IMG/VR virus record: IMGVR_UViG_3300035659_000035
Span: 1 to 43,925 of that record
Length of the DNA stretch: 43,925 bases
Source: a virus
Reading direction: 5' to 3' (one strand)
Shown: positions 9,096-40,956 of the stretch, one piece after another
How positions within the stretch are numbered: the first letter of the stretch is position 1
How the letters are laid out: each line of letters opens with the position of its first letter
Made by a program: the position numbers and the translations under genes
Notes under the pieces: model-generated
Told to the model about the DNA's origin: nothing
Seen by the model: the letters and a program-made list of their open reading frames with translations, nothing else
Database searches by the model: none

Positions 9096-9226
9096 TAGGG
9101 TGGTTCACCCGCCCCCTCGTGGAGGCGGTCAGCCAGCTCCACCAGAGAAAGAACACCGGATGCCCACAAGACTCCACAAATGGGGTGGACCACGACGTTG
9201 TGAAAGAGGAACTTCCAGCGGCTCAT
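9095..9226 (-). CDS. 43-residue phage protein with HNxxxHP motif
   Basis: A short frame fits exactly between the J protein and the 269-residue protein. Its ATG overlaps the J stop as ATGA (9223-9226) and its TAA overlaps the next ATG as TAATG. The product begins MSRWKFLFHNVVVHPICGVL, continues WASGVLSLVELADRLHEGAG and ends EPP. I recall small phage proteins of this type (Phe-His-Asn, then His-Pro, a Gly-x-x-x-Trp stretch and an ADRLH end), though their function is unknown. The middle is hydrophobic enough for one short membrane-associated helix. A hairpin with an ACGA loop lies near its 3' end, just before the next start. Double overlap and family-like motifs make it a real gene despite its size. 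Confidence 0.65.
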   Translation of the reverse strand: MSRWKFLFHNVVVHPICGVLWASGVLSLVELADRLHEGAGEPP

Positions 9227-12200
9227 GGGGTGGCATTCCTGAACGTGAGCGTCAAATCACCGAGTTCGATGAACTCGACAGCAGTAGCCACAATGTCGTG
9301 AGGGCCTACGTCCCCACGGATGACGTAGGAGGCGGTGTAAACATGGTTCAGGGGGCTGTCTGGTGGCAGACCTGCTCCAGAGAGAGCCACAATCACATGG
9401 TTCGCTGTCCGTCGAAGCCTCTCAGCCTCAATGGCCGCCGCAGTCGTGAACCCATCGGCAATGAGCGTGGTGTCGTCCGAGTACCCCGCGATGACAGCCC
9501 CACCATTCCCGATGATGTAGGCCCCGTTGGTACTGGTCGCTACCGAGGCCAAAGAGGAGGAGAGGACCATGGCCTCGTCATCCTGGAAGACTCCCTTGTG
9601 CTCGGTTACTAGCCCTCCACCATCCGTGGTGGGGTTCAGGAGGGCATCCGTGAGGATGTAGACGAGGTTGCCCCCAATATCGAGGGAGGTGGGCCGTGGT
9701 TCAACGAAGGTCGAGGAGATGCTCTCCCGAATCTTCCTGGACCCATCCTGATACCCCATCTTGGCCAACGGGATGACCTGGAAGTCCACACCGTCCGTGG
9801 AATCCACAGCGTTGATGATGTCCGATTGGGCCGACCCCTGACCGATGAGCTTCTGGTTCAGCTCCAGACTCACATTGGTTCGCACAGCGGGATCAGCCTT
9901 GTCCTTGGATGCCCCCTGCTTGAGCTGAATCGTTGTTTCAATTGCGATGGGGTTCTCGACGGACTGCTTCGCAAGCACGTCAGCGGTCACGTGACGCCTT
10001 ACATTGATCGTCCTCTGAAGCTGCTGTAGCAGGTCGTTGATGACATAGGTGACCGTGAAGTTCTCGTCATGGTTGTAATCCACGCTCACGGTTTGCCCAC
10101 TCAGGATATCCGACGGATTCACCCTGACGATCTTCGCTGGGGTCGTAGGCGTTCCTGGGATGATGTCGAAGTCAGGGGATACTGATCCCGGCCCGTCATA
10201 CTCCACAGAGCGATCTTGGCTGAACACTCTGAGAGTCGCCGTGTTGATGCCGATGGAGTTCAGCGGTTCCTCGAAGAACCCAATGAGGACATGCTGCTCG
10301 TCAGTCACCGTGATGGTCGCACCGCTCGGCACGTTGCCAATCTGTGTGATGACCATGTGGTCCTTCGCGATGGTGGACTCCCCATTCTCCAGGGGATCCT
10401 CAGTCTTGTACAAAGCATACCCTGCTGTGGTTAGAGCCCCAGAGATTTCACCAACGACAGAGATAACTCGTCGTACCGGCTGTAGGGTGAAGGTGAACTG
10501 ATTCACTGAACGGAAGCGGTAGTCCGCCGTGATTATGTCATCAATGGCTGTGAGGGGCTGAGGGATAGACGTGTTGATCTTGAACGTGTTGTACGTGAGG
10601 ATGGCTACCCCGAGTAGGTCGTAGTTCAACCCGGAGGTGTCGTTTCGCACACCAAATCCGAGGGGGAGGTTGTCCAGAATTTCGATGACTGGTGTGTTCA
10701 CGGTCACACGAGAGTCCAGAACCCTGAAGATGAGGTTCGGGAGATCCAGGATCTCAATGCGAATGTCTCGGGCCACGTCAAACGTGAAGGCGAACGTCTC
10801 TGAGAGAGTTCGCTCACGGAGGCCCTGGATGAAGATGTCCACCTTACCACCGATGTGCTTGTGACGAACCGGATCGTAGTCCCTCATCATGAGGGGGTCG
10901 CCGGACTTGATGATCTTGGCCTTGACCACCCCGATCTGCTCGGCTGCCGTGGAGGCGTATCCTCCCTCGGTACCAGTGTCCACGCTCACGAAGCCAAGGG
11001 TTGCTCTGGCTGCCAGGTCTGCATTGGACTCTCGGCTGGTACCGAACACGGTGGACTCGGTGTTCGTGACAGAGACTCCAGTGAGGCCCTGGACGTTAAC
11101 GATGGTTCCGGCAGGACGGTTGCCGTTTTCTCCCACACTCTGAGCTACAACGTCTGCGGTGATCTCATACCGCTTCGTGTTGAAGTTGTAGAAGGCGTCT
11201 GCATCCGCAGCGGGGAGTACGAAGGTACCCCCCACCCTGTAACGTTGAGCGGATATGTTTGCGCTAATCGTATCAGCATCCGACGATACGATGGTCCCTG
11301 TTGGGATCAGGATATCTATCGTCGGACGGGTAGGGGTGTAGAACACCACCTGACCCACGGAGGGCCTCCCAGGGAGGCGAGTTTTGTTGAAGTTCTTGGC
11401 CAGCTTCTCGAACTGTGTGTCGATGAGCTGTTGAACCGCTGTGTCTGTCGTGTACCCAAGTGCCGAACGGAGTGCTTGCTTGTAGGCACTAGCGGCTACG
11501 GGGTCAGAAATCCCATCCCCGTTTGTGTCATCGATCTGGAGGAGGGTGACGAAGCTCTGGCTCCGGTGAATGAAGTCAACAAGGAACCAGAGCCTCTCGG
11601 CCTCTGACGAGAAGGGGTCAATGTTCACATCCCGTGTTGTGGACCCAGGGATGATGCTGATCTCTTGGTTGACCCGTTCGATGGCCGTCACGAAGTCGAT
11701 GACGATCTGTGTCTGATTCCGACCTGGCAGATCCCGAACGTTCGTGTCGATGATGAGGGGAGAGCCTAAGACTTCCTGTGAGTAGGGAGACTCAATCTCT
11801 TGGCTCAGAACGGTGTCGTAGTAGATACCCGTGGCCACGTAGTAGAGGGGAGCTGTAGGTTGCACCCCATTGAACCGATCTGAGTTGATCTGGTCTGGAT
11901 TGGTGGTGGACCGGGTATGTGTGAAGGTAATGAATGGGGACAGCGTGTACGGGAGTACCTCGTAGTTGTAACGAATGTTCGAGGAGAGGTCGAGGATGTC
12001 GTACTTGGTGTCAATGTTCCGTGCGATTTCATTCCCGAACACATCCTCCTGGGTCACCTGAACACGGAGATACCTGGCGGATGCTGGTAACGAAGCGGAC
12101 AGCTCATCCAGAGTAAAGTCCGCCTCATCGTAACTCACAGGTCCCGTCAAGGGTGTGGGATTGACCTTGAAGTACCCTGACACACCCGCTGGGGTGGTGG

Positions 12201-12690
12201 AGGCATACACGTTGAAACCCCGGAACTGGAAGTCCCCGGAAGTTGTACTCAGATCACCGTTGTTGGGGACATTCGGGAACGTGGGGTTGTAGACCAAGAT
12301 ATTCACGGAGTTTCTGTTCCGCTCAACCTTGATCCCTGTTGGGGTCAACTGTGTGTTGTCGGCTGACAGAATCCTGGTGACACTCACCGTAGCCGGAGGG
12401 CTCACTCCACCCAGGATGTCCACTGCCCGGATGAGGATGGTGTTGACCCCTACGTCCAGGGGTAGTCCATCCGGCATGGCGGACAGGGTAGGAACTGTGA
12501 AGTTCGTGAAGTCGAGGAACACCAAGCTAGGGTCTGAACTATACGGAGACCCATTCACCGACACCTGGAGGGCGATGATGTTGGTGGCGATGGTCCCTAC
12601 AATCGTCACCAACTCCTGATTGGTCGTGAAGACGATGGTAGAGGCGAATCCACTACCGTCTCTTAGAGCTATTTGAGGCGTTGCGGCCAT
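9223..12690 (-). CDS. Baseplate J-like wedge protein (1155 aa)
   Basis: The core resembles the baseplate J family (P2 gpJ; T4 gp6-like): GRPSVGQVVFYTPTRPT near residue 430, IPTGTIVSSD, a GENGNRPAGTI loop near 525, and the long GGYASTAAEQIGVVKAKI stretch near 580. J proteins form the wedge that joins baseplate to sheath and triggers contraction. This copy is about twice or more the usual gpJ length. About 400 N-terminal residues precede the core and look like FN3 or Ig-type beta domains, with segments such as FQFRGFNVYAST and ARYLRVQVTQEDVFGNE. It follows the gp25-like gene by six bases and overlaps the 43-residue gene, so it belongs to the baseplate operon. Confidence 0.85.
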   Translation of the reverse strand: MAATPQIALRDGSGFASTIVFTTNQELVTIVGTIATNIIALQVSVNGSPYSSDPSLVFLDFTNFTVPTLSAMPDGLPLDVGVNTILIRAVDILGGVSPPATVSVTRILSADNTQLTPTGIKVERNRNSVNILVYNPTFPNVPNNGDLSTTSGDFQFRGFNVYASTTPAGVSGYFKVNPTPLTGPVSYDEADFTLDELSASLPASARYLRVQVTQEDVFGNEIARNIDTKYDILDLSSNIRYNYEVLPYTLSPFITFTHTRSTTNPDQINSDRFNGVQPTAPLYYVATGIYYDTVLSQEIESPYSQEVLGSPLIIDTNVRDLPGRNQTQIVIDFVTAIERVNQEISIIPGSTTRDVNIDPFSSEAERLWFLVDFIHRSQSFVTLLQIDDTNGDGISDPVAASAYKQALRSALGYTTDTAVQQLIDTQFEKLAKNFNKTRLPGRPSVGQVVFYTPTRPTIDILIPTGTIVSSDADTISANISAQRYRVGGTFVLPAADADAFYNFNTKRYEITADVVAQSVGENGNRPAGTIVNVQGLTGVSVTNTESTVFGTSRESNADLAARATLGFVSVDTGTEGGYASTAAEQIGVVKAKIIKSGDPLMMRDYDPVRHKHIGGKVDIFIQGLRERTLSETFAFTFDVARDIRIEILDLPNLIFRVLDSRVTVNTPVIEILDNLPLGFGVRNDTSGLNYDLLGVAILTYNTFKINTSIPQPLTAIDDIITADYRFRSVNQFTFTLQPVRRVISVVGEISGALTTAGYALYKTEDPLENGESTIAKDHMVITQIGNVPSGATITVTDEQHVLIGFFEEPLNSIGINTATLRVFSQDRSVEYDGPGSVSPDFDIIPGTPTTPAKIVRVNPSDILSGQTVSVDYNHDENFTVTYVINDLLQQLQRTINVRRHVTADVLAKQSVENPIAIETTIQLKQGASKDKADPAVRTNVSLELNQKLIGQGSAQSDIINAVDSTDGVDFQVIPLAKMGYQDGSRKIRESISSTFVEPRPTSLDIGGNLVYILTDALLNPTTDGGGLVTEHKGVFQDDEAMVLSSSLASVATSTNGAYIIGNGGAVIAGYSDDTTLIADGFTTAAAIEAERLRRTANHVIVALSGAGLPPDSPLNHVYTASYVIRGDVGPHDIVATAVEFIELGDLTLTFRNATP

Positions 12691-16865: not shown

Positions 16866-17012
16866 TTATCCGCCGTACTGGAGCTTATCCAGCTTCTTCT
16901 TCAAGCGATCCCTCTCAGCCTGGGCAGCCGTGAGAGTCATCTTGAGTATCTCTTTCATCTTGGTGTTGATGCCGAACTCCGTCTTGTACTCCCAATTCAC
17001 CTTGGGCTTCAC
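16866..17012 (-). CDS. Small coiled-coil protein (48 aa, GTG start)
   Basis: The product, beginning with GTG at 17012, is KPKVNWEYKTEFGINTKMKE followed by a charged helix ending AERDRLKKKLDKLQYGG. The GTG overlaps the TGA of the 1994-residue gene as GTGA, the same coupling used throughout this cluster. A longer version from an ATG at 17135 (89 residues) is possible and has AGAGG five bases upstream. However, its added N-terminus lies inside the end of the upstream gene and is low-complexity Gln/Gly/Ala, which looks like an out-of-frame reading. I prefer the short start but cannot exclude the long one. A chaperone, plug or small baseplate subunit is possible. Confidence 0.6.
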   Translation of the reverse strand: MKPKVNWEYKTEFGINTKMKEILKMTLTAAQAERDRLKKKLDKLQYGG

Positions 17013-23313: not shown

Positions 23314-23886
23314 TCATAGGATCTTGCCAAACCCGACTCCCGTAGCAGCCGACGGAGTGGGAGGGCCTACAATGACCACTGGTAACAGAAGAGTAGCGAA
23401 AGTCTGATCCAGCCCGATTGCCAGGGCAGCGGCCTTCCGAGCTGCCGCAATCCCGATCATTCCTGCCGTTGCAAACCCAGCAATGATGGACGGGAAGGCC
23501 GGAGGAGCACGGAAGGATGCTACACCGGCCCCGGATCCTACTCCGGCATGTTGGGTTACCACAAGAGTCTGAAGGAACACGGCCGTCAAGCCGTTGGATA
23601 AGCCCAAGAGGAACAGCGGAGCCATGAGGCCCATGAGCCCCTGTGAGGCCATTCCGCTCGTCAGATTGGCCAGCAGGATGGGAGTGGGAACCAGGACGGG
23701 TAAGGGAACTCCGACTCCCGTACCCCCGGTACCTACATCGTTGGTCAAGACCGTGATCTGGGGGACCCAGATGGTCAGACCGGCAATCACCCCCGAAGCG
23801 TACTTCGGCACCCCTACCCCCAGCATGGACGTAGCTGCGAGGTTGGCTGCAAGAGTCGGTACAGCTACAGCCGAGACGATAGGCAT
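23314..23886 (-). CDS. Hydrophobic Gly/Pro-rich protein coupled to the spike (190 aa)
   Basis: The ATG at 23886 overlaps the spike stop (TGATG), giving 190 residues; the longer frame upstream would only repeat spike coding sequence in another frame. The protein is strongly hydrophobic, with segments such as GVIAGLTIWVPQITVL, LMGLMAPLFLLGLSNGLTAV and SIIAGFATAGMIGIAAA. Short polar turns rich in Gly and Pro (GTGGTGVGVPLPVLVPTP) separate them. It has no signal peptide of usual form. Its position immediately after a gp5-like spike suggests a spike-tip, hub-bound or membrane-interacting component. PAAR proteins often occupy this place, but no PAAR motif is clear to me. Alternatives are a holin-like membrane protein or a tail subunit. 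Confidence 0.6.
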   Translation of the reverse strand: MPIVSAVAVPTLAANLAATSMLGVGVPKYASGVIAGLTIWVPQITVLTNDVGTGGTGVGVPLPVLVPTPILLANLTSGMASQGLMGLMAPLFLLGLSNGLTAVFLQTLVVTQHAGVGSGAGVASFRAPPAFPSIIAGFATAGMIGIAAARKAAALAIGLDQTFATLLLPVVIVGPPTPSAATGVGFGKIL

Positions 23887-26060
23887 CAGATTGACCGAAT
23901 CAAGGCGCTTCCGAGCAAAGGCAAGTTTGTTATGTAGTCGAGCGTTGGTGTTCCGGGGGGCAGGGCCGGGACACCTCGGCATACCCCCAGGGCTGCTGCG
24001 GGGCCTCCCAGGAGCACCTGAGGGGCCGTGAGCGTGATGGCGGTAGCAGCCGTCAGGGTGATGGCCAGGCCCGCTGTCAGGCTGATAGCCCCGGCCGCAG
24101 CCCCTAGGGAGAGTGCCCCCGCAGCCGTGGACAACGTGACCGCTCCCGCTCCAGTGGTCATGGAGATGACCCCGGTACCCACCGTGGTGGTGAAACCCCC
24201 CGCAGCGATGTTGTTGGCTATCCCCCCAGCCGTGATGTTGTGGACCTCCCCACCCGACAGGATGTTTTGAATCAGCCCACCCGCAAGGATGGTCGAAATC
24301 TTACCACCTACGAAGATCGTCTCCAGTACCGTGAGGGCATAGTTGTACTGGCTCTTGCCAGACACCATCCAGGCAATCTCCCCGAAGTTGCCGCCGAACC
24401 CTTGGAAGGAGTTGATGTTGAGGCGGTCAGCGTGGATCTGGAAACCCCCATCGATGAGCATCTCCTTAGAGGCCGCTTGCTCTTGATCGACCCCCGTGAC
24501 GATCTTACGGGTCTTACCCTTGATGACAGACTCGTAAGCCATGTCATTGTCGTTCGGCGTCGTGGTCCCATACTGGACTTTGACGCTGGACCGATAGGTG
24601 ATGTCAAGAGCGTTGCCATCCGAATTGTGCCCTATGATGGCCTTGATGCCTCCAGCCAGGACAGCGTTGATCGAGTTCCTGTCTGGAGAAGACGCACCAA
24701 TGTACGCCTTGATTGCTCCTTGCATGTTGATCTCGGCCGAGACATTCTTGGCTGCGTAATCCTCCACCTTGGATCCAGGGACGTTAAGGAGGATCTTCCC
24801 CTCCTTGGTGATGGCATGGGCGTAGTCGTTATCCCCGGTGCTCCTGGGCGGGCGGATCCGAAACAAGTAGGCTGCGGCACTCGTGACGGCTTCGAGGTCC
24901 TTCGTAGGGAGACGAACGGCTGTCTCCAACACGAACTTCCCTGGTGACGTGGTTTGAAAATCGGAAAAGATCCTAGGCTTGAGCACCTGAGCATACTGTC
25001 TCTCGCCCCGCACCGTGTTGAAGTCGTTACCCACCACGGTACCGTAGACCTGCTCGATATAGGGTATCCGGCGATCCATCTCGAATCCGTCGATTTCCTC
25101 CATGACCTCCATGTTGAGATCAGACGAATGTGAGAGTTCCATCCGGTGCTCAACGAAAGCATCCGCAGCGGATTCCACGTCTTCAACACTGACAGCAGGA
25201 GAAGTAGGCGGGTAGTGAACCCTACGTCCATTACTGTAGGTGACAGCGGGGAATGCGTTGAAGTCGTTGAACAGGTCGAGGACATTGCCGTTCGTCAGAG
25301 CATACTTGGGGGCCACACCGGGGTTGATTCCTGGTCCAGCTTCCTGAAGTTCGTCCCTACCGTAGTAGCTCGTGTCTGTGTCCCTGAGCGTCCGGGTTCC
25401 AGTCTGGAGGATATCCTCAGGGAGAAAGAACTTGCTCCGGCGGATTGGGCCTGAGATACGTCGCACACCGGACTCCGCCTCCACACGGTGAACAGCCGAG
25501 GCTACCCAGCTCCGTTCTGCGTCCCTCAGCTCCAGGAAGTCCCCCGCTCGATTGGTCATCCGAACATCCTTGGACAGGACGAACTCGGCACCGCTGGAGG
25601 ACATCCCTCCCACGTCCCCCTGCTTCATCACAAGCCGCTTGTATCGAGTGGTCGTACCAAGCACCTGGTCAGCCAGGGCCTTGTCTTGTGGGGAAATTGT
25701 GGATGGGTCGTGGGACGAGGTGGGGTCAAATCTGAGACCGCTTCGATTGCCAGTGGGGATGTACCCTAGTATCACAGCATCCCATAGCTGCTTGTGAACT
25801 CGTCGGTACCCGATGATGACCATCGAGTTCACCTCAGGCACGCCTCCCCAGAAGCTTCGGGGTCCAGCCATACCCTGCGTCAGGTCCACCTCGAAACGGT
25901 ATCCCCCACCTGTGAGAATCTGAATGTCCGCCTTCAGGTTCAGCTCATCCACGCGGATGATGATGCCTACCTTAGTCGCATAGAAGGAATTGGCTCCCTC
26001 TACGAAGTCCTTGTTAGGGGTATACCCAACCGGACGCTTGGGGGTTTTGTCAAATGGCAT
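23886..26060 (-). CDS. Baseplate spike, gp5/gpV/VgrG-type (724 aa)
   Basis: Residues 25-110 look like the OB-fold domain of central spikes: YATKVGIIIRVDELNLKADI, then FWGGVPEVNSMVIIGYRR and AVILGYIPTG. The C-terminal part from about residue 577 is a short-period repeat (GGKISTILAGGLIQNILSGG, and similar), the mark of a triple-stranded beta-helix or needle. It ends with the hydrophobic PAAALGVCRGVPALPPG tail. Such trimers puncture the outer envelope under the baseplate. The middle carries many aromatic-polar strands and no T4-type lysozyme domain is evident. Start and stop both overlap neighbours (TAATG with the hub, TGATG with the 190-residue gene), so hub, spike and tip candidate form one translational unit. 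Confidence 0.82.
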   Translation of the reverse strand: MPFDKTPKRPVGYTPNKDFVEGANSFYATKVGIIIRVDELNLKADIQILTGGGYRFEVDLTQGMAGPRSFWGGVPEVNSMVIIGYRRVHKQLWDAVILGYIPTGNRSGLRFDPTSSHDPSTISPQDKALADQVLGTTTRYKRLVMKQGDVGGMSSSGAEFVLSKDVRMTNRAGDFLELRDAERSWVASAVHRVEAESGVRRISGPIRRSKFFLPEDILQTGTRTLRDTDTSYYGRDELQEAGPGINPGVAPKYALTNGNVLDLFNDFNAFPAVTYSNGRRVHYPPTSPAVSVEDVESAADAFVEHRMELSHSSDLNMEVMEEIDGFEMDRRIPYIEQVYGTVVGNDFNTVRGERQYAQVLKPRIFSDFQTTSPGKFVLETAVRLPTKDLEAVTSAAAYLFRIRPPRSTGDNDYAHAITKEGKILLNVPGSKVEDYAAKNVSAEINMQGAIKAYIGASSPDRNSINAVLAGGIKAIIGHNSDGNALDITYRSSVKVQYGTTTPNDNDMAYESVIKGKTRKIVTGVDQEQAASKEMLIDGGFQIHADRLNINSFQGFGGNFGEIAWMVSGKSQYNYALTVLETIFVGGKISTILAGGLIQNILSGGEVHNITAGGIANNIAAGGFTTTVGTGVISMTTGAGAVTLSTAAGALSLGAAAGAISLTAGLAITLTAATAITLTAPQVLLGGPAAALGVCRGVPALPPGTPTLDYITNLPLLGSALIRSI

Positions 26061-29000
26061 TAGGAGGTGGGCACCTGTGATGCTTGGAGTCGCTTGATGC
26101 TGACCTCTTGCTCAAGGCGAGAGATTTCCTGGTTGACCTGATCCAACTGCTTCTGTGGGTCAACCCCAATAATCTTGGAACCCGGGGAGTTGAGCACACC
26201 TGTCAGTTCCTTCTGGGCTACTTTCAATGTATCCACCTTCTTCTGAAGGATGTTAGCCTCAGACTCCAGCTTGGTTCGCTGCGTATTGGCGTTCAACTTG
26301 TCGCCAAACTGAGTCCATGTCTTCTGGATGTTCCCCAGTGCGGAGCTGGCCGTGAGGGCCAGAGCCTCTGGATCCCCTCCGACAGCTCGACTGGGGGCAT
26401 CAAATGGGGGAGTGAAACCACCTCTGGTCGGGGACCCTAGGTTTCTTGGGAGGGGAGAACCATCCTCGGCAACCCCTGGGGGTAAGAGGGGGTCATTCAC
26501 GTTCACTCCAGCGGGAGGACCCAGACGGATGTCACTGGCCATGGGGCCTCTAGGCAGCAGCTCCCCTCGAATGGTTTTCTCAAACTGTTGGTGAGGTGTG
26601 TCCAGGGCCTTGTACAGGTTCACCAGGTAAGTTTCAATCCTATCTGTGAGCGGTAGGAATGGGGCAACAACGCGATTCAGGTTGTCCGCTCCAGACGCCT
26701 CGGTAGGTAGGGTGGAGACGTCTCCGGCTGTCGAGGAAGTCTTCAACGTCTTGAGCTGGTACCCAGAGTTGATGAAGGCCAGGTCGGTACGTCCTAGCAG
26801 ACAGGCACACTCATCCCCAGGTACAGACTTGTCCTTGACTCCCATCTCGGCAAGAGTCAGTGCCCGACTGAGTTGAGATGCTTCAACAGAGGACGGCAAT
26901 CCCTTCTGTGCGGTGGAGCCGAGGGGTGCTGTGTCCGCAATGAGGATTTTATCCTGCTCAGTGAACTCCAGAGCCTTCGTTTCAGGAACTCTGCGACCCG
27001 CAGTCTGAAGTTCCTCGGGCTGGAGTCTGGAAAGAGTAGCCGCTGTGTTGGCGAACGCACCTGTCACGGCACTGATCCCCTGAGACTGTGCCGATAGTGT
27101 CTCGAAGAGTCCCCCAGCTAGGGCTACCTGAGCATCAATCCTGGCAGCACTGTTGGGTTTGTTCTCGTTCAGGACGAGAGAGCCGTCCCGTAGATGAATG
27201 CCTCGGCCATACCGGAAGTGCCCAATCACCTCAAAGCCCCGTTGATCCGACACGGGCCGGATCATTGCCGACCCGTTGCCCAAGAATGCGGGGTCCGTCT
27301 TATCATTGACGATAGTGGTGATCTTTGCCTTGTCCGGAAATATGACCTCCTCGATCTGCTTCGAGCTATCGTAGCAGTAAGTGTAGACGCCAGCGGAGTT
27401 CATACCATACGAGTACCTGTGGTTGAGGTGCTCGTCCCTTAGCCTGTCCGCAGCTTGGTAGGTATGCATGGCCTGGTCGATGTCTGCCAACTGAGCCTTG
27501 GCTCCATCCTCGAACTCCTTCTTCGCCTGAGCAACTCGCGATGTGACTTGAGCATTTTGCCCTGTATTGGCCCTCAGTTCCTCTGGCGTAGGAGTGAATG
27601 GCCTCGTATATGCCATCACCACGTTAGGATAGCCGACGATGCGCCCTGTCTTAGGATGCCTCAGGATGAGGGGCTCGTAAGGGTTGTCTCCAGAGGCAGC
27701 CTGCTGTTGTCCAGGAATCGATGGTGGGAGCTGAGCAGCCTCACCCACTCTCAGTTCGAAGGAAGCCAAGTTCGTGAGGTCACGGCTGGATATCTTCCCC
27801 CCTTGAGAGAGCGGGGTTTCAGGCACACTCTGGTTGTCCGGGGGTGGAGTGTTGGCTACTCCCGTGACGCTCATAGTCCCTATGCCCTTTGGGGCAATGA
27901 ACTTCTGCCTCTTGGCCGTGAGGGTCAGGGACGTTGTGGCTCTACCCCCAAACGAGATGTTGTGGGAGATGCCTGACACGTACCAAATCTGGTCCTTGGA
28001 CGCCACGTACACTGGGAACCCCATCCTCAACTCAGGTCGGCAAGGGATCGTGACTGTCCCCCTGTGTCTCTTGGAGTTCAGGCGGTCAAGCATGTCCATG
28101 CCGACGTAGAACATCAACTGGGTGTCCCCCAGGAACTCAGAGCTGAACGGGTGCTGCCTCCACCCGTACTTCCTGAGAAGGTGGTAGTCCGTGACAGACG
28201 TGAAGGGGGTGAGGTCTTCTCCTAGACTATAGTCCACGTTCCCAGCAAACCCTCCTTGGATGGTGATCTGCGTCACTACCTCGGCTTCGGATTCGGAGAA
28301 GTCCCAGTCTATGACGTCGATGTCCTGTATCCAGGACACAGGCTTGTTGGGTAGAACGTCAAGGTTGTAGAACGGGGGCTTGAAGACGATGGACCCATCC
28401 ACGTCCATAAAGAACTCGAATCCGATAGCGTTTTTGGCCGTGTTGGCTGCCTCGATTTTGGTCTGGTATTCTGACTGCCAGAGATTGATCTGACCCGCGT
28501 TCATGAACTGCGTTCGCATCGAGGTCACCTGAGGGTCCGTTGGGTCGAAAGCCATCTGGCCAGCGGTCTGACCCCCATTAGCTGCCCTCACCACTTGAGA
28601 AGCGAATGGCTTACCATTCTCTTGCTTCGTCGAGTTGTAGATGTCGTACAGGGTGTCCCCACGAACAGCCGTGCCCTGAGTCCCATATAGAAGGAGGTTG
28701 GATCTGATCCGAGAAAACCGCTTTTGCCAATAGAGCATGATGTCAGACAAGGCGGCATTGAAAGTCTCCTTCTGACCCTCCTCCTTGTTCATGCTCACCA
28801 GAGAACCAGAGCCTACGACCACGTCTCCGAAGGACTGCTGTGCCAAAGTCCAGATCACGTCATAGGGATTGGAACCGGAGAACACACTGCCGAACAGGTT
28901 ACGACCCTGCTGCCCAGCGGGTTGGGTGAACGCGGGGTTGACATTCATCTGGCAAATTTCCCACCACTTGAGAATATCGGCACAGTTGATAGCGATGGTG

Positions 29001-29389
29001 TGCTCCCCGCCGGAGTAGCTGTCACTGACGTCAGTGATCATCCCCCAGAAGATTGGGTAATACTGAGGGATGCCCTCAATGAGGTAGTACCCCTTGCAGT
29101 AGATTTCCACCTCCATCATGGGGGTGAGGAGAAGATTTCCGTCGAAGTAGAGGTCGTCTATGGTGTGACGAGGGACAGCCAGGGAGATGTTCGCTGACCC
29201 CGGAGGGCTATCTACATTGAGGTCTACGGTAACACTCGTGACGAACTTGTTGAGATCGAACTTCCTGTTGCACTGAGGGCATCCAATGAGGTCTGACTCC
29301 CCGTTGATGTAGACCATGGCATCTGGAGCCGTCACGACCGTTGGACGGACGCCAGGACGATAATTGCCTTGGAAAGGACTTCGGGCCAT
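26060..29389 (-). CDS. Baseplate hub protein, gp27/gpD-like (1109 aa)
   Basis: Residues 40-420 look like the gpD/gp27 hub family: SVTVDLNVDSPPGSANISLA, then VEIYCKGYYLIEG, IFWGMITDVSDSY, HTIAINCADILKWWEI, and later ITIQGGFAGNVDYSLGED. A CxxC (Cys37/Cys40) is present near the N-terminus. The family forms the ring that binds the spike and joins the tube. The protein is far longer than P2 gpD (about 390 residues); the extra C-terminal half is Pro/Gly-rich and ends in a coiled coil of about 60 residues (QKQLDQVNQEISRLEQEV). It overlaps the spike start (TAATG) and the peptidase-bearing gene upstream (TAATG). Confidence 0.8.
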   Translation of the reverse strand: MARSPFQGNYRPGVRPTVVTAPDAMVYINGESDLIGCPQCNRKFDLNKFVTSVTVDLNVDSPPGSANISLAVPRHTIDDLYFDGNLLLTPMMEVEIYCKGYYLIEGIPQYYPIFWGMITDVSDSYSGGEHTIAINCADILKWWEICQMNVNPAFTQPAGQQGRNLFGSVFSGSNPYDVIWTLAQQSFGDVVVGSGSLVSMNKEEGQKETFNAALSDIMLYWQKRFSRIRSNLLLYGTQGTAVRGDTLYDIYNSTKQENGKPFASQVVRAANGGQTAGQMAFDPTDPQVTSMRTQFMNAGQINLWQSEYQTKIEAANTAKNAIGFEFFMDVDGSIVFKPPFYNLDVLPNKPVSWIQDIDVIDWDFSESEAEVVTQITIQGGFAGNVDYSLGEDLTPFTSVTDYHLLRKYGWRQHPFSSEFLGDTQLMFYVGMDMLDRLNSKRHRGTVTIPCRPELRMGFPVYVASKDQIWYVSGISHNISFGGRATTSLTLTAKRQKFIAPKGIGTMSVTGVANTPPPDNQSVPETPLSQGGKISSRDLTNLASFELRVGEAAQLPPSIPGQQQAASGDNPYEPLILRHPKTGRIVGYPNVVMAYTRPFTPTPEELRANTGQNAQVTSRVAQAKKEFEDGAKAQLADIDQAMHTYQAADRLRDEHLNHRYSYGMNSAGVYTYCYDSSKQIEEVIFPDKAKITTIVNDKTDPAFLGNGSAMIRPVSDQRGFEVIGHFRYGRGIHLRDGSLVLNENKPNSAARIDAQVALAGGLFETLSAQSQGISAVTGAFANTAATLSRLQPEELQTAGRRVPETKALEFTEQDKILIADTAPLGSTAQKGLPSSVEASQLSRALTLAEMGVKDKSVPGDECACLLGRTDLAFINSGYQLKTLKTSSTAGDVSTLPTEASGADNLNRVVAPFLPLTDRIETYLVNLYKALDTPHQQFEKTIRGELLPRGPMASDIRLGPPAGVNVNDPLLPPGVAEDGSPLPRNLGSPTRGGFTPPFDAPSRAVGGDPEALALTASSALGNIQKTWTQFGDKLNANTQRTKLESEANILQKKVDTLKVAQKELTGVLNSPGSKIIGVDPQKQLDQVNQEISRLEQEVSIKRLQASQVPTS

Positions 29390-31353
29390 TAGAGTGCCAA
29401 CGCCAACTCACCTTGCAGTCGGCTGAGTTCCTGGTGATAGGTAGCGGTATCTATCTCACCACTCTTGTACTTCTGAGTCGTGAGGTTGATGTTTGCTTGG
29501 ATCCGAGCCTGTGCCAATTTGGCTCCAGCCTCACCCCCTGGCTTCTGTGGTGAGGTGGCTACCAAAGCATCGATGTCTCCCAGGTCGATGATATTGGAGG
29601 TAGGTTGGTCATCGATGTCTCCCAGGTCGATGATATTGGAGGTGACCTCATCAGAGAACGTGGTCTTACCTCCGAAGATGTCCCCATCCCCTGAGGGGAG
29701 TACGTCCGCCTGAACCTGCTGGTTTCTGCGAATCTGCTCGGGAGGATTGTCGAGGAGAAAGGTAGCTCGCACGGTGAAGTCGAAACTGTACTCCAAGGTG
29801 AACGGCTTCGTGTCATCCTCTGTGACGTTGAAACTGTCGAACGACCCCAGGTAGAGGATGTTATCGTAGTAGATATAGACGGTCCCCACCACAGAGAGGT
29901 TGAGCCTCTTCTCCACACCAAAGTCCGCAAGGTACAGCCCAGCGTTGTTCCGGTACAGGAGATACAGAGCCAAGAAGTTTTGGTACCCTTTGGAGAAATT
30001 CCGGGCCATCCGGGTCAGTCCAGGACTTCCTGCTGGAGCATTGGTTACATTGCTGGAGATCATGGAGTAGAACCCAGCAACCTGGCCTGAGCCAGAAATC
30101 TTGTCCTGCTGATTCCCCCAGTGTTCGATGATGGGACCATTGCGCCCCCAGTTGCCGTCTGAGGTGATCTTCTCCCCAGAAACAGTGAACGATCTGGGGT
30201 TCACGAGCATGCGTAACGGAGGGGTGTTCCGCATGTTCTCCAAAGCCCTCTGGGTGGCAATGATCTGAGCCCTCTGGGCATCTTGAAACCGTTTGCCGAG
30301 GTCTGTCGTTACGGTGATTTGAGTCGTGGCTATCTTATCGAGCTGTTTTCTGCTCTCCATAGCGGCCGGAGCACCGTTGGTCTGCCATGTTGTGGAGGGC
30401 TGGTTGTCGGGTACTATGGCTGTGCCTACTGGAGGTGGAGGCTGTGGTCTTTGGTTGTTCGGAGGCAGAATTTGGTATTGCTTCAACCCCCCAAGCCACT
30501 GGAAGTGAGGTTTGTCCTTCTTTTTCCAGTCCCCACCCCATTCTAATCCGAGACTCTTACCTAGGGCACCTATCTTCTGGAGAATGTCCTCGGGAGGGTC
30601 AGGTTGAGCGAAAGCAACCTTCGGCTTACCCTTCTTCGGAGTGGTCTCTGAAACCACCAGAACGTCGAATGCCCAGCCTGCCTGATGCAAGCTCGTAGGG
30701 GGTGTTCCACGGGCATCGGTGACAATCTGGTTTCCTGGTTGTCCTAAGGCGGGGGGACCAGGGAAGTTTCTCCCTTTGGAGTAGTTTAGGTCCTGTTCCG
30801 CTGAGCTTCTCGGACCGGAGGACACAGCAATGGTGATCCCCTCCGCAGCACAAAGTTCGATCAGCTTCTTTGCGTGGGGTTGAATCTCGGGTTGGAGGCC
30901 GTTGATGAAGTTGTTGGAAGCACTCACCATCCATGGTGGAGGCACAGCGTTGAATTTGCCGTTCGCAGTCTTGGCTATTAGCGGCAAGTCCTGCCCACCA
31001 ACTGTCTGGAGAGGTACTAGGTCTGGTTGACTCTCTTCTACCGGTACTTCACCTGAACCTGGAATTTGTGTAGTTGTGGTAGTGGTCACCACTCCAGTAG
31101 TCCCACTGGTAGCCGACCTGTCCAGCAAGATTCCGGTGACACCTACTGACGGGGGTAAGACGCCAACCACAAACAGCTTGGGGTTCCTTGCCCTCTTGTC
31201 CACTGCCGACAGTGGAATGAACTCGGAATCAAGCGAGTCCCTTTCAAGAGACAGGTTCGAGAAGAACGTCAACAGACCAGCGTAGACGTTCGGAGCATAG
31301 TAGTCCGCCTGTGTCTCGATTTGCCCGAGGATGGAACCGTTGGTGTCCGCCAT
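29389..31353 (-). CDS. Tail protein with M15-type peptidase and a tail-protein domain (654 aa)
   Basis: Three parts are visible. Residues 1-145 form a structural N-terminus with a Thr-rich linker. Residues about 150-290 match M15 peptidases of the VanY/T5-endolysin type: SLHQAGWAFD gives His223 and Asp230, and DKPHFQW gives Asp280 and His283. The 7-residue H-to-D spacing and the D-x-x-H pair are as in the family, whose zinc ligands and catalytic acid these would be. Residues about 379-535 form a domain homologous to the 219-residue neighbour (LVNPRSF, EHWG, GTVYIYYDNILYLGSFDSF). Two 14-residue repeats and a helical tail follow. It is probably a virion-associated cell-wall hydrolase that opens peptidoglycan during infection. 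Confidence 0.82.
   Translation of the reverse strand: MADTNGSILGQIETQADYYAPNVYAGLLTFFSNLSLERDSLDSEFIPLSAVDKRARNPKLFVVGVLPPSVGVTGILLDRSATSGTTGVVTTTTTTQIPGSGEVPVEESQPDLVPLQTVGGQDLPLIAKTANGKFNAVPPPWMVSASNNFINGLQPEIQPHAKKLIELCAAEGITIAVSSGPRSSAEQDLNYSKGRNFPGPPALGQPGNQIVTDARGTPPTSLHQAGWAFDVLVVSETTPKKGKPKVAFAQPDPPEDILQKIGALGKSLGLEWGGDWKKKDKPHFQWLGGLKQYQILPPNNQRPQPPPPVGTAIVPDNQPSTTWQTNGAPAAMESRKQLDKIATTQITVTTDLGKRFQDAQRAQIIATQRALENMRNTPPLRMLVNPRSFTVSGEKITSDGNWGRNGPIIEHWGNQQDKISGSGQVAGFYSMISSNVTNAPAGSPGLTRMARNFSKGYQNFLALYLLYRNNAGLYLADFGVEKRLNLSVVGTVYIYYDNILYLGSFDSFNVTEDDTKPFTLEYSFDFTVRATFLLDNPPEQIRRNQQVQADVLPSGDGDIFGGKTTFSDEVTSNIIDLGDIDDQPTSNIIDLGDIDALVATSPQKPGGEAGAKLAQARIQANINLTTQKYKSGEIDTATYHQELSRLQGELALAL
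29568..29643. repeat. Two-copy direct repeat inside the peptidase-bearing gene
   Basis: A 34-base sequence occurs twice without mismatch, at 29568-29601 and 29610-29643, with a 42-base period. On the coding strand it gives SNIIDLGDID twice, so the period is exactly 14 codons and the frame is kept. This looks like a recent in-frame duplication in a linker. Confidence 0.9.
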
Positions 31354-31357
31354 TGGT

Positions 31358-32017
31358 CTACCCCCGAGTGATAGGAGCCGTGAGGTTGACGTTCTGGCTC
31401 TGGAACTGTGGTGCCCCTCGGCTAACTTGCCCGAAAGCGTACTGTGTGATGGTCTCCTCTACCTTGAATGTCCAGTTCAAGTTGAATGCGAAGGGAGATG
31501 CGTCTGTCTCCTCCACCTCGAACGTCCTGAACGTGCCGATGTACGTCCCCCTGTCGTACATGAGCATCAGATTCCCGTGAAGTACGATGGCACCGCTGGG
31601 GTCAAAGAGAGCCCCGTTGTTCAGGAACAGATCGTGCAAATCCCTGTAACGGTCCCAGGCAATGGTCCTCTGCCGCATGATAGCAGAGAGGCCGTTGAAG
31701 ATGTTCATGAAGGAACCAGTTGACCCCGAAGCCGTGATAGTTGTCAGCTCGTGTCCCCAGTGCTGCTCTACGAATCCTCCACGAGTCTGGATGCGCTCAA
31801 CCTTCTGATTGAATCCCTCCTGGAAGTTACTGGGGTTGACGTGGAGCACCAGGGCATGGGGCATCAGTACCCTGTGGTTGTCAAAAGGGCTCGTGACCTG
31901 GAACGCCATAGCAATCCCGCTAGGCTTCCGTGTCGCAGCGGGATGGGTATACCCAGTGTCCTTTGACGGCGCTTCGGTCCTGAAGACCTGCTCGTTTGGT
32001 GAGGGAATTCTAGGCAT
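31358..32017 (-). CDS. Tail/baseplate protein paralogous to the 654-residue protein (219 aa)
   Basis: A 219-residue protein whose residues 52-192 align by eye with residues 379-535 of the downstream 654-residue protein. Shared landmarks are a VNPxxF strand, an E-x-HWG motif, a mid-segment SGS, and GTYIGTFRTFEVEETDASPF against YLGSFDSFNVTEDDTKPF. In many phages the genes just after the tape measure encode baseplate-hub or tail-tube-initiator factors, some with LysM-like folds; that is the likely role here. Its ATG overlaps the tape measure stop (TGATG) and its stop is four bases from the next ATG. No enzymatic residues are seen. Confidence 0.72.
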   Translation of the reverse strand: MPRIPSPNEQVFRTEAPSKDTGYTHPAATRKPSGIAMAFQVTSPFDNHRVLMPHALVLHVNPSNFQEGFNQKVERIQTRGGFVEQHWGHELTTITASGSTGSFMNIFNGLSAIMRQRTIAWDRYRDLHDLFLNNGALFDPSGAIVLHGNLMLMYDRGTYIGTFRTFEVEETDASPFAFNLNWTFKVEETITQYAFGQVSRGAPQFQSQNVNLTAPITRG

Positions 32018-35000
32018 CAGTTCAAGTGCTCACGACGCTTGTACTCATAGATGGCGTTTGTGGCAGCTACCTTGACCATGTTTGCCAGGTCGTTCCCGCC
32101 GATACCGTTGACTGTCACGCTGATATTGGTGCCACCTCCACCAGCCCCACTGGGAGCGATTGTCTCCCCTGGGCCAATCGATGTGGGCATCTCTCCTGCG
32201 GGAGCCTTCAGGACCTTGGCTGAGCCATCGGGGTTCTGGCCTACGACGAAGCCACCCTCGGCATGAGCAGTCATCGGAGTAGCGACCTTATTCAGGAGGT
32301 CCGAGCCGAACGTTTTGGCATTGAATCCAGGGCCAGCCGCCTGCGTTTGAATCTGTGCCGCAGACATGTCCTTGTATAGGGAATACTCAACCAGAGCAAC
32401 TCGGACGGCTTCCAGAACGGACTTCTCCACCATCGGCCCAAGTTCGTTGTTCACGAAGCTCTTGTCGAGCTTCACATCCCTCCTGAGAATGCCCGCGAGA
32501 ACCCCGAAACCATCAGTGAGGGTTATCTCATTCTGATCCCGGATGGTCTTGGTTACCTCAGCGATCCCTGTGTCCTTGGTTCCCTGGATGACGTTGTCCA
32601 TCCCCGTCTTGATCGCATCGAGAGCTTGTCCTTTGACCTCAATGGGGGCTGGATTTACCGGTGCTGTTGGAGCTGCACCTGGAGTTGTTGGAGCTGCACC
32701 TGGAGTTGTTGGAGCTGCACCTGGAGTTGTTGAAGCTGCACCTGGTGGTTTTTGAGCGGCAGCAAGCTCTGCTGTTTTCTTTGCTCGTGCTGCTGCCATC
32801 TCGGCATCAGTAGTGCGATGGTCCCCACCGGTAGTCTCAACGTGAGTTTCCTGCCACAACTTATAGAGATTGTATCCAACAGCACCTACTGCCGCCCCTG
32901 CTGCCACACCTGCTGCTGCTACTGCGGCTCCTGCCGCTACGCCAGCACCCGTCAGGGCAGTAGCAGCAGTAGCAGCAGCGGGAACAACAGCAGCCTCTAC
33001 AGCGGGAACAACAGCAGCCTCTACAGCGGGAACAACAGCAGCCTCTATAGCGGGTCCAGCAAGTGCCTTGGCCCCGGCCGCCAATGCTTTGGTTGCGACG
33101 ACCTGGGCCAAGGCCATCTTGGCTACCCCGCCACCAACCTCGACTGCACCCCCAAGAGCCCCCGCTGCGGCGGGGCCTATCTTGTCTGCAATCCAATTCT
33201 TCACACTACCTGCGATGATGTCCAGATTCTTCGCCATACTCACAGTGTCTTTGGCTATCGCAGCCTGAACATTGTAGACGTCCTTGATGCCCTGAACTGT
33301 GTCCTGCTGAAGTGTAGACATCGCCCCCCAAACTGAATCTGTGTCCTTAGCATCAAGTTGGGCAGCAGCATTACCGTCCTTGGCATCGATTCCCAATTTC
33401 TTCAGAAGAGCCTGATCCTCGGCCGTCAAGTCAGCATTAGCCTTGAGCTTGTTGACTAGTTCTTGCTTCATCTGGTCCGTACCAGACATCATCTTTTTGT
33501 ACCCGTCGATTACTTCCTCTGTAAGTCCGAATACACTTGTGGCGATGTAGTCTGTGCCTGTCAAGGTATCTATACTCTTACCTTTTAGGCCAGGCATTTT
33601 GGATAGACCCTTGTTAATCAGGTCTGCACCCGCCTTAGGACCAAGGTTCTTCGCCGCACTGGCAATGTTAACCAGATCCCCACTGAGGTACTTACTGGTA
33701 TCTAAGGCAGCCTGAGTGACGTTACCCTTCTGGGCTGCGGTGAGTTTGGTGTTCTTTGCCAACCATGTGTTGGTCTCCGACATACCCTTATGAATAGCCT
33801 GGGTCATCTCAGCGGTCTCGGCTGCACTCAATTGGAAATCCTTGGCCATATCCGCAATTCTGCGATCTGTGTCCTTCATACCAATCTGCTGAGCTTCATC
33901 CTTGCCAGCAAAAAGAGTCAACTTGAGCCGACTCTGTAAGTCCTGACCCCCTACCAAGCTGGTCAGGGACTTCATGAACTTAGCGGCATCCTTCGGAGCC
34001 ATCGCCTTCCCTAGCATCTTCAGCAACCTCGCGGAATCCTCCATGCGGTTGTTGAAGAGGTTCATGTCGTCGCTGGACGACCTGATGATGTTGAAGAACT
34101 TGTTGGTTGCCATTCCAGACTCAGCAGCAGTCATACTGAGCATCGCTAACTGCTTGTCTGTCTGGTCAAGGCTAACCCCAATGTCCGTAGCCATCTGGGA
34201 TTGCAACTGAGTGATTTCAGCGACACTCACTCCCATGTGCCGACCGAAGGCAACAGAGGCTTTCACCAGTGAGTTGGATAACTCCTCGACAGGAATATTA
34301 GCCTTCTTGGCCGCCTCACTAATTTCAAACATGCCCTGACCCTCCTGGCCAAGGGCATTCAACGTCTGTGCATGTTGTTCCGGCGTGATCCCTAATTCCA
34401 GATTTTCCAGGGAGTGGGCCTTGTTCCGCACTTTCTCCAACTGGTTTGAGACATCCTTGTAGGCTGCACTGGCATCGCCCCCTCGTGCTGCTAAGAACTT
34501 AGCGGAATCACTACCCTCTGTTATGGAGGCATTGAAATCCTTCACCATGGAGTCCAGCTTGAGGAAGATTTGCAGTGCTTCCTTGAGACCATCGACGATG
34601 ACGCTAAACATGGGTGCTAACCTGCCAAACGATGCCGCAGCACCCTCCAGCTTACCCGCAGCAGCTTTCATCAGCTTCCCACCACCCTTACCATCATCGG
34701 CCTTCTCTCCACGACCGCGAAGAAACTTGGCCCCAAGCTTCATCCCCCCAATCATCCCCTGCCCTATCAGCTTAGCAGTGGCCTCCGCAGCCTCCGGGAG
34801 GTCATTGTTGAGCAGAGCCTTCAGTGGAGCACGGAGTCGCTCTCCACCCTCTTTGAGCCCCTCGGCCATCTCCTTCATATCCAGACCCTCTTCGAGCTTC
34901 TCCCTCATCTCAGAGGTGTACTTATCAGCGTCCTTTAGCGCAGTCTTGTACTCCTCCGCTTCCTTGCTCAGCTTCGAGAAGATGTCCTCTTGCTTGCTCA

Positions 35001-35487
35001 TACCATCATTCACCCGCCCCAGCATCTTCTGTTCAGCTTGACGACCCGCCACAAGCTCCTTTAACTCAGCACGCCCGCTCGCCAGAGCATCTTTATCCTT
35101 GGTGTCCGTTTTAAGGATAGCCTTCCCGAGCTTGTCCTCCTGCTTGCGGAAATTCCGGATGCTTTTCTCAAGGTCTTGTCTCTTCTGGAGTCCCTTGACG
35201 TACTTGGTTTGTGCCTTGCGCTGATTCTCAGCAATACGAGTAAGGTCAACCCCAAAAGTCTTCTGTGCTTCCGTCGATTCTTTAATTGCAACCTGGTAAG
35301 TCTTGTTAACGTCGGAAGCCATCCCCTTCCAAATCTTGCCCGAGACCTTCCCTAAACGCTGAGACTCCTTGTCAATACGCTGTAGGTGATTAGTGATCCC
35401 CTTCTGAATTTTGGCAAATGCAGCAATAGCATCCCGGGGATTGACCTCAACACCAAATTGAAGGATCTCCTCGTTTGTCTTAGCCAC
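32017..35487 (-). CDS. Tail tape measure protein (1156 aa)
   Basis: The product is long and mostly helical. The N-terminus (FGVEVNPRDAIAAFAKIQKG) and the following coiled coils (about residues 60-230, rich in Lys, Glu and Leu) are typical of tape measures. So is the middle section, which has an alternating Ala/Gly hydrophobic stretch near residues 770-880 (AAGVAAGAAVGAVGYNLYKL) that could insert in a membrane. Two in-frame repeat arrays lie there: AVEAAVVP three times and TTPGAAP about four times. It uses GTG at 35487, two bases after the stop of the 417-residue gene. Length, position after the chaperone genes and before the hub genes all fit. Such proteins set tail length and help DNA passage. 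Confidence 0.85.
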   Translation of the reverse strand: MAKTNEEILQFGVEVNPRDAIAAFAKIQKGITNHLQRIDKESQRLGKVSGKIWKGMASDVNKTYQVAIKESTEAQKTFGVDLTRIAENQRKAQTKYVKGLQKRQDLEKSIRNFRKQEDKLGKAILKTDTKDKDALASGRAELKELVAGRQAEQKMLGRVNDGMSKQEDIFSKLSKEAEEYKTALKDADKYTSEMREKLEEGLDMKEMAEGLKEGGERLRAPLKALLNNDLPEAAEATAKLIGQGMIGGMKLGAKFLRGRGEKADDGKGGGKLMKAAAGKLEGAAASFGRLAPMFSVIVDGLKEALQIFLKLDSMVKDFNASITEGSDSAKFLAARGGDASAAYKDVSNQLEKVRNKAHSLENLELGITPEQHAQTLNALGQEGQGMFEISEAAKKANIPVEELSNSLVKASVAFGRHMGVSVAEITQLQSQMATDIGVSLDQTDKQLAMLSMTAAESGMATNKFFNIIRSSSDDMNLFNNRMEDSARLLKMLGKAMAPKDAAKFMKSLTSLVGGQDLQSRLKLTLFAGKDEAQQIGMKDTDRRIADMAKDFQLSAAETAEMTQAIHKGMSETNTWLAKNTKLTAAQKGNVTQAALDTSKYLSGDLVNIASAAKNLGPKAGADLINKGLSKMPGLKGKSIDTLTGTDYIATSVFGLTEEVIDGYKKMMSGTDQMKQELVNKLKANADLTAEDQALLKKLGIDAKDGNAAAQLDAKDTDSVWGAMSTLQQDTVQGIKDVYNVQAAIAKDTVSMAKNLDIIAGSVKNWIADKIGPAAAGALGGAVEVGGGVAKMALAQVVATKALAAGAKALAGPAIEAAVVPAVEAAVVPAVEAAVVPAAATAATALTGAGVAAGAAVAAAGVAAGAAVGAVGYNLYKLWQETHVETTGGDHRTTDAEMAAARAKKTAELAAAQKPPGAASTTPGAAPTTPGAAPTTPGAAPTAPVNPAPIEVKGQALDAIKTGMDNVIQGTKDTGIAEVTKTIRDQNEITLTDGFGVLAGILRRDVKLDKSFVNNELGPMVEKSVLEAVRVALVEYSLYKDMSAAQIQTQAAGPGFNAKTFGSDLLNKVATPMTAHAEGGFVVGQNPDGSAKVLKAPAGEMPTSIGPGETIAPSGAGGGGTNISVTVNGIGGNDLANMVKVAATNAIYEYKRREHLN
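32669..32746. repeat. 21-bp tandem repeat in the tape measure gene
   Basis: Three copies of a 21-base unit run head to tail at 32669-32689, 32690-32710 and 32711-32731, with a partial diverged copy after them. The unit encodes the heptad TTPGAAP on the minus strand. The frame is kept, so it makes a Pro/Ala linker rather than a break. Confidence 0.9.
32977..33048. repeat. 24-bp tandem repeat in the tape measure gene
   Basis: Three copies of a 24-base unit run head to tail (32977-33000, 33001-33024, 33025-33048; the third has one changed base). They encode AVEAAVVP three times in the hydrophobic part of the tape measure. Confidence 0.9.
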
Positions 35488-40299: not shown

Positions 40300-40956
40300 A
40301 TGTCCCCCAAATACCCTCGAACCCCTCATCTCCCTTGGAGTCCGGGTGGCACGTCGGATGACCGCCGGATCTCTTCGGTCGAGTCATTCCTCTGTACCCC
40401 GGTCGTCCTGACCGAGAAAATGGACGGAAGCAATGTCTGTCTGGAGAGGGACGCCTGCTTTGCCCGGAGCCATGCAACGGCCCCGAATCACCCGAGCTTC
40501 GATGCCTTCAAGGCGTTTCATGCCTCGGTGAAGGGCCAGATCGGTGATGGTATTCAGGTCTTCGGTGAGTGGGTCTATGCCAAGCACAGCATTTCCTACT
40601 CGGACCTCTCGGCCTACTTCCTGACCTTCGGCGTCCGTGACCTCAACAAGGGCCTCTGGGCCTCCTGGGAGGAAGTGGAACTCTGGTCGGAAACCCTCGG
40701 GGTCCCCACGGTCCCGGTCCTGGCTCGTGAGCCTTGGCTCAACCGTGAGCACAAGATTCGTGATCTGGTCGAGACTCACTCCGAGATGCCCTCTCGGCTC
40801 GGTGGCGGTCCTCGTGAGGGAATCGTCCTCCGTGTGGCGGGGGAGTTCAAGGACGAGCAGTTCTCAACCTCCGTGGCTAAATGGGTACGGAAAGATCACG
40901 TCCAGTCCGATGAGCACTGGAAGAACCAGCAGATCGTCCGGAACGCCCTGAGGTAG
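40300..40956 (+). CDS. ATP-dependent RNA ligase (218 aa)
   Basis: The nucleotidyltransferase motifs are readable: motif I TEKMDGSN (Lys40 is the predicted adenylated lysine), motif III FGEWVYAKHSI near residue 88, motif IIIa YFLTFGVRD near 106, motif IV EGIVLR at 173, and motif V VAKWVRKDHV near 193. The opening KYPRTPHLPWSPGGTSDD is a signature I associate with a phage RNA ligase family. At 218 residues it is a compact nucleotidyltransferase domain with no room for a large C-terminal domain. Its likely role is sealing RNA breaks, including those made by host anticodon nucleases. It is the only plus-strand gene, and its stop lies four bases from the end of a minus-strand coding segment. Confidence 0.85.
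   Translation: MSPKYPRTPHLPWSPGGTSDDRRISSVESFLCTPVVLTEKMDGSNVCLERDACFARSHATAPNHPSFDAFKAFHASVKGQIGDGIQVFGEWVYAKHSISYSDLSAYFLTFGVRDLNKGLWASWEEVELWSETLGVPTVPVLAREPWLNREHKIRDLVETHSEMPSRLGGGPREGIVLRVAGEFKDEQFSTSVAKWVRKDHVQSDEHWKNQQIVRNALR

Follow-up and report, generated by a model that had tools for sequence, protein, structure and literature searches.

The stretch of DNA analysed here, called the window throughout, is the 43,925-base record IMGVR_UViG_3300035659_000035, classed as virus, whose tail genes lie on the minus strand in the order of a protein in tape-measure position, a 219-residue protein (copy 1), a 654-residue protein (copy 2), a presumed hub, a presumed spike and, at some distance downstream, a Baseplate_J protein. 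The subject of this study is the pair formed by copies 1 and 2. Copy 1 (31358..32017, minus strand) is a tail-tube-like protein without a hydrolase, predicted from the list of open reading frames (ORFs), its paralogy, an AlphaFold2 model and fold matches in the PDB to be a tail tube initiator or baseplate adaptor. Copy 2 (29389..31353, minus) comprises a conserved N-terminal region without family match (residues 1-84; 31102..31353, minus), an exchangeable slot (about residues 85-315; 30409..31101, minus) delimited by the drop in DNA identity, from about 0.75 to about 0.3-0.4, against the nearest relative, L003, a tail-tube-like domain (residues 371-535; 29749..30243, minus) paralogous to copy 1 residues 45-189, and a C-terminal tail. 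In the window, the slot is occupied by an M15 peptidase domain (residues 142-290; 30484..30930, minus). The ORFs of both copies overlap or almost abut the adjoining genes.

The sequence-only reading that preceded this analysis had proposed a domain common to the 219- and 654-residue proteins, and the comparison bears it out. BLASTP aligns copy 2 residues 371-531 with copy 1 residues 45-189, nearly the same ranges as those proposed, at 25% identity over 163 positions (E 5e-13), and profile-profile alignment with 10 rows on each side gives a probability of 99.4 and E 2.7e-21. Structure prediction points to like rather than differing folds. The AlphaFold2 model of copy 1 (61 sequences; predicted local distance difference test, pLDDT, 81.7; predicted template modelling score 0.73) is tube-like: Foldseek gives the phi812 baseplate chain 9euf_M as best PDB match (E 6.9e-7), followed by baseplate chains of PVC, AFP, phiCD508 and diffocin, that is, of contractile injection systems and phages; VIA-align returns its best Z, 9.6, for AFP 6rao_G (141 positions aligned, root-mean-square deviation 4.9), and nearly all of the 50 matches listed are tail-tube, baseplate or Hcp proteins. 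The copy 2 model is poor overall (mean pLDDT 60.4); its core shares the helix and strand order of copy 1 and finds the same type of match, again 9euf_M (E 5e-4). From these models, both copies are predicted to be tube-initiator-like baseplate proteins. Their genes also occupy the position of tube initiators, between tape measure and hub in a contractile module, as judged from the gene order, the Baseplate_J gene downstream and the synteny with phage Tunturi 5. Comparison of the copy 1 profile with PDB sequences gave no convincing relative, the better of two matches (E 0.0047) being a designed protein.

The M15-type domain is likewise found where the same reading had placed it, ahead of the shared domain and with its ligands intact. 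Two Pfam families exceed their cut-offs (PF13539, 43.3 bits against 25, E 5.6e-11; PF02557 VanY, 26.1 against 25), PHROGs concurs, and the domain is Ply500/LysB4-like both by sequence comparison with solved structures (Ply500 2vo9, E 2.1e-10; LysB4 6akv, E 2.7e-8) and by Foldseek with the copy 2 model (Ply500, E 4e-8). Aligned to Ply500, the predicted zinc ligands H223 (codon 30685..30687, minus), D230 (30664..30666, minus) and H283 (30505..30507, minus) are all present, as is D280 (30514..30516, minus), which by analogy with Ply500 we take to be the catalytic acid/base; the four positions are invariant in all 8 aligned M15 members of the copy-2 family. The nearest solved relatives are L-Ala-D-Glu peptidases, and the window domain is by analogy presumed to be a Ply500-like L-Ala-D-Glu endopeptidase. 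A search of the window for PF08291 returned nothing; given that PF08291 is an M15 family other than the one present, this says nothing against the assignment. With the 654-residue protein as query, 126 records of the phage collection were matched, none over 80% of the query, and the best 40 of the 126 match entirely within the M15 region.

To place the window among its relatives, viral contigs of up to 529 kb were searched by two single-protein scans and two profile scans, one per domain, which provided 88 distinct proteins for each of the two copies. The near clade is formed by the 70 copy-2 proteins, window included, that possess the window's N-terminal region and core; near-identical rows are retained among them, the different cores numbering 66. 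The 18 copy-2 proteins left out are those of Tunturi 5 and L167, the 5'-truncated near-clade M15 fragments L012 and L114, and 14 LR745208-like proteins without a match to the N-terminal region; five of the 18 (L001, L232, L241, L234 and Tunturi 5 gp255) were compared with Pfam and gave no match. The 8 M15 rows of the near clade came from the window itself, from the domain-profile scans (4 + 1) and from the other single-protein scan (2), and the full-length 654-residue query alone contributed none of them. In all 70 near-clade cases, or in 66 of them under stricter spacing, the gene immediately upstream of copy 2 is copy 1. Searched against the phage collection, copy 1 matched two records, LR745208 and Tunturi 5, neither a close relative. 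The fragment L012 (IMGVR_UViG_3300031707_001570) is a 4.5-kb contig near-identical to the window across copy 2 and the hub, and by its sequence appears to be a second sampling of the window phage or of a very close one. In L004 (8645-9247, plus strand) and also in L005, compared with the close relative L006, a 200-residue ORF separates copy 1 from copy 2, right where copy 2 starts.

Clustering of the 70 copy-2 middles reveals the variety of what the slot contains: SLT transglycosylases (25), FlgJ-like glucosaminidases (19; LYZx 18, LYZy 1), M15 peptidases (8, in clusters of 6 and 2), CHAP-like domains (7, as 3 + 3 + 1), T4-type lysozymes (GH24, 5) and M23 peptidases (4), with two slots empty except for a 41-residue linker. 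A hydrolase-like middle is thus present in 68 of 70 proteins, the support for the class ranging from strong to inspection by eye only. Pfam at E<=0.01, where one protein can match several families, gives SLT in 22 of the 70 rows, M15_4 in 8, VanY in 6, Phage_lysozyme in 5, M23 in 4, CHAP and Phage_lysozyme2 in 3 each, and Glucosaminidase in 1. The LYZx group is named glucosaminidase-like because its profile matches FlgJ (E 1.4e-7), and the SLT-group profile matches a lytic transglycosylase (E 1.7e-15); the CHAPb profile had no match of note in the PDB. Copy 2 fuses a hydrolase domain to a structural tail protein, as is characteristic of virion-associated lysins. The fusion of a hydrolase to a paralogue of the preceding tail gene, which the first inspection had considered unusual, is instead the rule in this clade.

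Slot content is discordant with two flank trees. On the copy-2 core tree it needs 29 changes by parsimony (minimum 6, shuffled mean 39.1; 70 rows), and the separate copy-1 tree likewise demands 29 (shuffled 39.2; 70 rows), even though the merging of classes before counting (M15a/b, CHAPa/b/c, LYZx/y) lowers the counts; M15 alone takes 7 changes for 8 rows on the two trees alike. The window and L003, its closest relative (flanking domains put at 82-85% identity), are joined on both trees (support 98/93 and 100/100) and are 81.9% identical in the core and 79.8% in the N-terminal region, yet the middle of L003 is glucosaminidase-like (LYZx) where the window has M15. At the DNA level, their flanks are about 72-91% identical in most 90-base steps as against 28-44% in the middle, with sharp breakpoints around codons 85 and 315. 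A like pattern is seen in the pair of L007 (CHAP-like) and L009 (M15), with cores 90.7% and N-terminal regions 86.6% identical, and class differs in 49 of the 72 pairs whose cores are 75-97% identical. What is conserved in these sequences is the slot, rather than the M15 peptidase; and because relatives with the same pair carry other enzymes in the same slot, the paralogue pair predates M15. The history of the slot is probably one of repeated replacement combined with inheritance, as opposed to free shuffling.

The seat of the lysin also varies. Hydrolase matches in the 88 distinct copy-1 proteins are limited to M23 in L113 and L157 (E 1.2e-28 and 2.1e-24), the same two near-clade phages whose copy-2 slot is empty. 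Among more distant phages, in LR745208 neither copy has a Pfam hydrolase match and the next gene, the hub, bears a Glucosaminidase domain (E 1.1e-7; 5.6e-18 with its own profile); the L169/L240 hub has M23 (E 3.5e-21). No such match was found in the 62 distinct complete near-clade hubs, and the LR745208-like hubs other than that of LR745208 are mostly incomplete in the stretches examined. In the hub ORF of two distant relatives, L239 and L243, a stretch at about residues 900-1150 looks SLT-like by eye; no profile match to it was obtained. Homology of Tunturi 5 gp256 to copy 1 is shown by hhalign (97.6%, E 2.8e-12, with a copy-1 profile built without gp256).

As for the genes around the pair, the long coiled protein upstream (32017..35487, minus) is the presumed tape measure, from its position and the annotation of the syntenic Tunturi 5 gene. 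Downstream follow the 1109-residue presumed baseplate hub (26060..29389, minus; tail protein phrog_52, E 0.0026) and the 724-residue presumed central spike (23886..26060, minus), which scores below cut-off for PF10106 DUF2345 and matches phrog_694 (baseplate hub and tail lysozyme) at the C-terminal end of phrog_694 only. The Baseplate_J protein (9223..12690, minus; PF04865, E 1.9e-12) by its sequence indicates a contractile-type baseplate. Two ORFs inside the tail region, of 1931 residues (2484-8279, minus) and 1994 residues (17009-22993, minus), have no Pfam match, and the longer has no PHROGs match either. The window further encodes an RNA ligase on the opposite strand from the tail genes (40300-40956, plus; phrog_24030, E 1.5e-51) and a DNA helicase cut by the window's end (41905-43923, minus; phrog_1967, E 2.1e-57). 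A host search in which the copy-2 core profile was compared with genome contigs found no relative.

Based on this evidence, the locus is understood, with a probability of about 0.7, as an anciently duplicated pair of tube-like baseplate proteins, the second of which carries an exchangeable lysin cassette, with about one virion lysin per tail. In a large phage with a contractile tail, copies 1 and 2 would be stacked between hub-spike and tail tube, with copy 2 as a ring at the tube base from which the slot domain projects. Upon sheath contraction, the tube tip would bring the enzyme into the periplasm or cell wall, in six copies should the ring be hexameric like that of other tube initiators, and the enzyme would there open the peptidoglycan locally for tube passage. 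Relatives may exchange catalytic cassettes through recombination within the linkers flanking the slot, one lysin being kept in the central tip assembly with copy 2, copy 1 or the hub as its seat. A more far-reaching proposal, which we hold tentatively and at somewhat less than even odds, is that of a dedicated lysin socket: one hydrolase per tail tip, drawn from at least six families exchanged cassette-wise, its seat moving among the two tube-initiator paralogues and the hub. Cutting specificity would then evolve apart from tail architecture, and the swaps may follow the peptidoglycan or envelope chemistry of the host.

Several observations weigh against the interpretation. Regarding the fold, PF23980 Phage_tail_tube_init reaches 20.7 bits on the window's copy 1 against a cut-off of 27 (at E<=0.01, it matches 18 of the 88 distinct copy-1 proteins), Foldseek TM-scores are modest (about 0.4), a VIA Z near 8 can, by the tool's own warning, reflect a common arrangement, and the structure model of the 654-residue protein is weak. 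Regarding exchange, slot identity within a class often tracks core identity, hence many cassettes were inherited vertically, and the change counts rest on trees in which roughly half of the branches have firm support. The weakest class label is CHAP-like, over the cut-off in L013 only, below it in L004, L006 and L010, and given to L007, L099 and L101 by eye from a conserved Cys and His. Regarding placement, L113 and L157 are sisters, so that in the near clade the lysin on copy 1 counts as a single event; and the annotation of Tunturi 5 gives it two tail proteins of lysin-like kind, gp256 ('lytic tail protein') and gp254 (noted as having lysin activity), which makes 'one per tail' a tendency rather than a law. 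As a strict rule it fails where the tail genes are only partly checkable.

Among other explanations, the one that survives best, though we consider it unlikely, is that the slot enzymes serve tail-protein processing or lysis from within, the tube-like domain merely anchoring or regulating them. M15, SLT, GH24 and CHAP do also occur as endolysin domains, and the closest database matches of the window's M15, among the matches listed, are endolysins; but peptidoglycan is the usual substrate of all six groups, which have no common protein substrate, and both the fusion to a tube-like baseplate domain and the locus between tape measure and hub are in keeping with a part of the virion. Of about the same low probability is that much of the diversity is ordinary gene replacement, whereby recombination moves entire tail modules, of which the slot is simply the least constrained part with no function as a socket. 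Phage tail modules are generally mosaic, and the within-class tracking of core identity speaks in its favour. Both slot flanks and copy 1, however, stay 73-91% identical where the middle is unrelated, slot length and position are kept, and a hydrolase-like domain is found in 68 of 70 slots, with copy 1 making up for the two that are empty. The history originally envisaged, in which one duplication preceded a one-off peptidase insertion in this lineage, holds insofar as the paralogues and the M15 peptidase fused between N-terminal region and shared domain of one copy are both real, yet as a single event it was rejected as very improbable upon comparison of relatives, slot clusters, sister pairs and both flank trees, with another enzyme in the nearest relative's slot, scattered M15 rows, at least 29 changes on each tree and two relatives bearing the lysin on the other copy.

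The exchangeable cassette on copy 2 has importance beyond the window, which is a single instance of it; what has been found is the slot. Virion lysins are commonly regarded as permanent components of tail proteins, and here one slot of one gene is refilled repeatedly with peptidases and glycosidases of unrelated fold between flanks up to 91% identical. The resulting sets of phages offer natural near-isogenic comparisons of which wall bond a contractile tail must cut and of whether the choice follows the host, and the slot borders mark positions in a baseplate protein at which evolution has time and again fused different catalytic domains. Caution is advised in annotation, the gene being automatically named 'endolysin', 'lysozyme' or 'carboxypeptidase' after whichever cassette is present.

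Ply500 and LysB4, which the window's M15 resembles in fold, ligands and overall sequence, are free endolysins with a wall-binding domain and not virion proteins, whereas copy 2 is predicted to be one. Modular virion lysins are already known, and so is the peptidoglycan-binding LysM domain that the tube initiators Mu gp43 and Milano gp25 add (PMC11915804). A tube-initiator-like paralogue with a catalytic slot that takes up unrelated enzymes between close relatives and is movable to adjoining genes was not found in the literature searched, chiefly open-access papers, nor was any paper describing lysin-class exchange in a tube initiator. In T4, gp48 and gp54, six copies each, lie between hub and tube as a platform for tube growth (PMC3004832), and so resemble copies 1 and 2 as two proteins at the junction of baseplate and tail tube; the comparison is by position and not by family membership, and no hydrolase is reported on them in that text. 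Mu gp43, Milano gp25, A-1(L) gp18 and AFP 6rao_G of the extracellular contractile injection systems have a tube-like beta-barrel domain of the kind found by the best fold matches of copy 1, but their additional domain serves binding or adaptor roles instead of hydrolysis, and the available text describes no swapping of catalytic class. Wall hydrolases on the central tip assembly are represented by T4 gp5 with its lysozyme, virion lysins being enzymes that open the wall at the site where the tube penetrates (PMC6116005), and by the A-1(L) hub gp15, which has lysozyme, endoglucanase and peptidase domains and carries active wall hydrolases (PMC10966104); these sit on the hub, as in LR745208 and L169, rather than on a tube-like paralogue. 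Tunturi 5, a contractile-tailed isolate (PMC11924767) whose host is a Tunturiibacter, has gp256-gp255-gp254 in the same order after the tape measure as the window, and differs in that the lysin-like part is at the N-terminus of the first copy, where it has no Pfam match. Enterococcal and other tail lysins (Tal, TMP) are modular tail fusions of CHAP, NLPC/P60, M23, lysozyme and SLT domains (PMC10194240, PMC6116005); their types are said to group by viral genus, whereas in the near clade the type changes between sister phages within a fixed slot.

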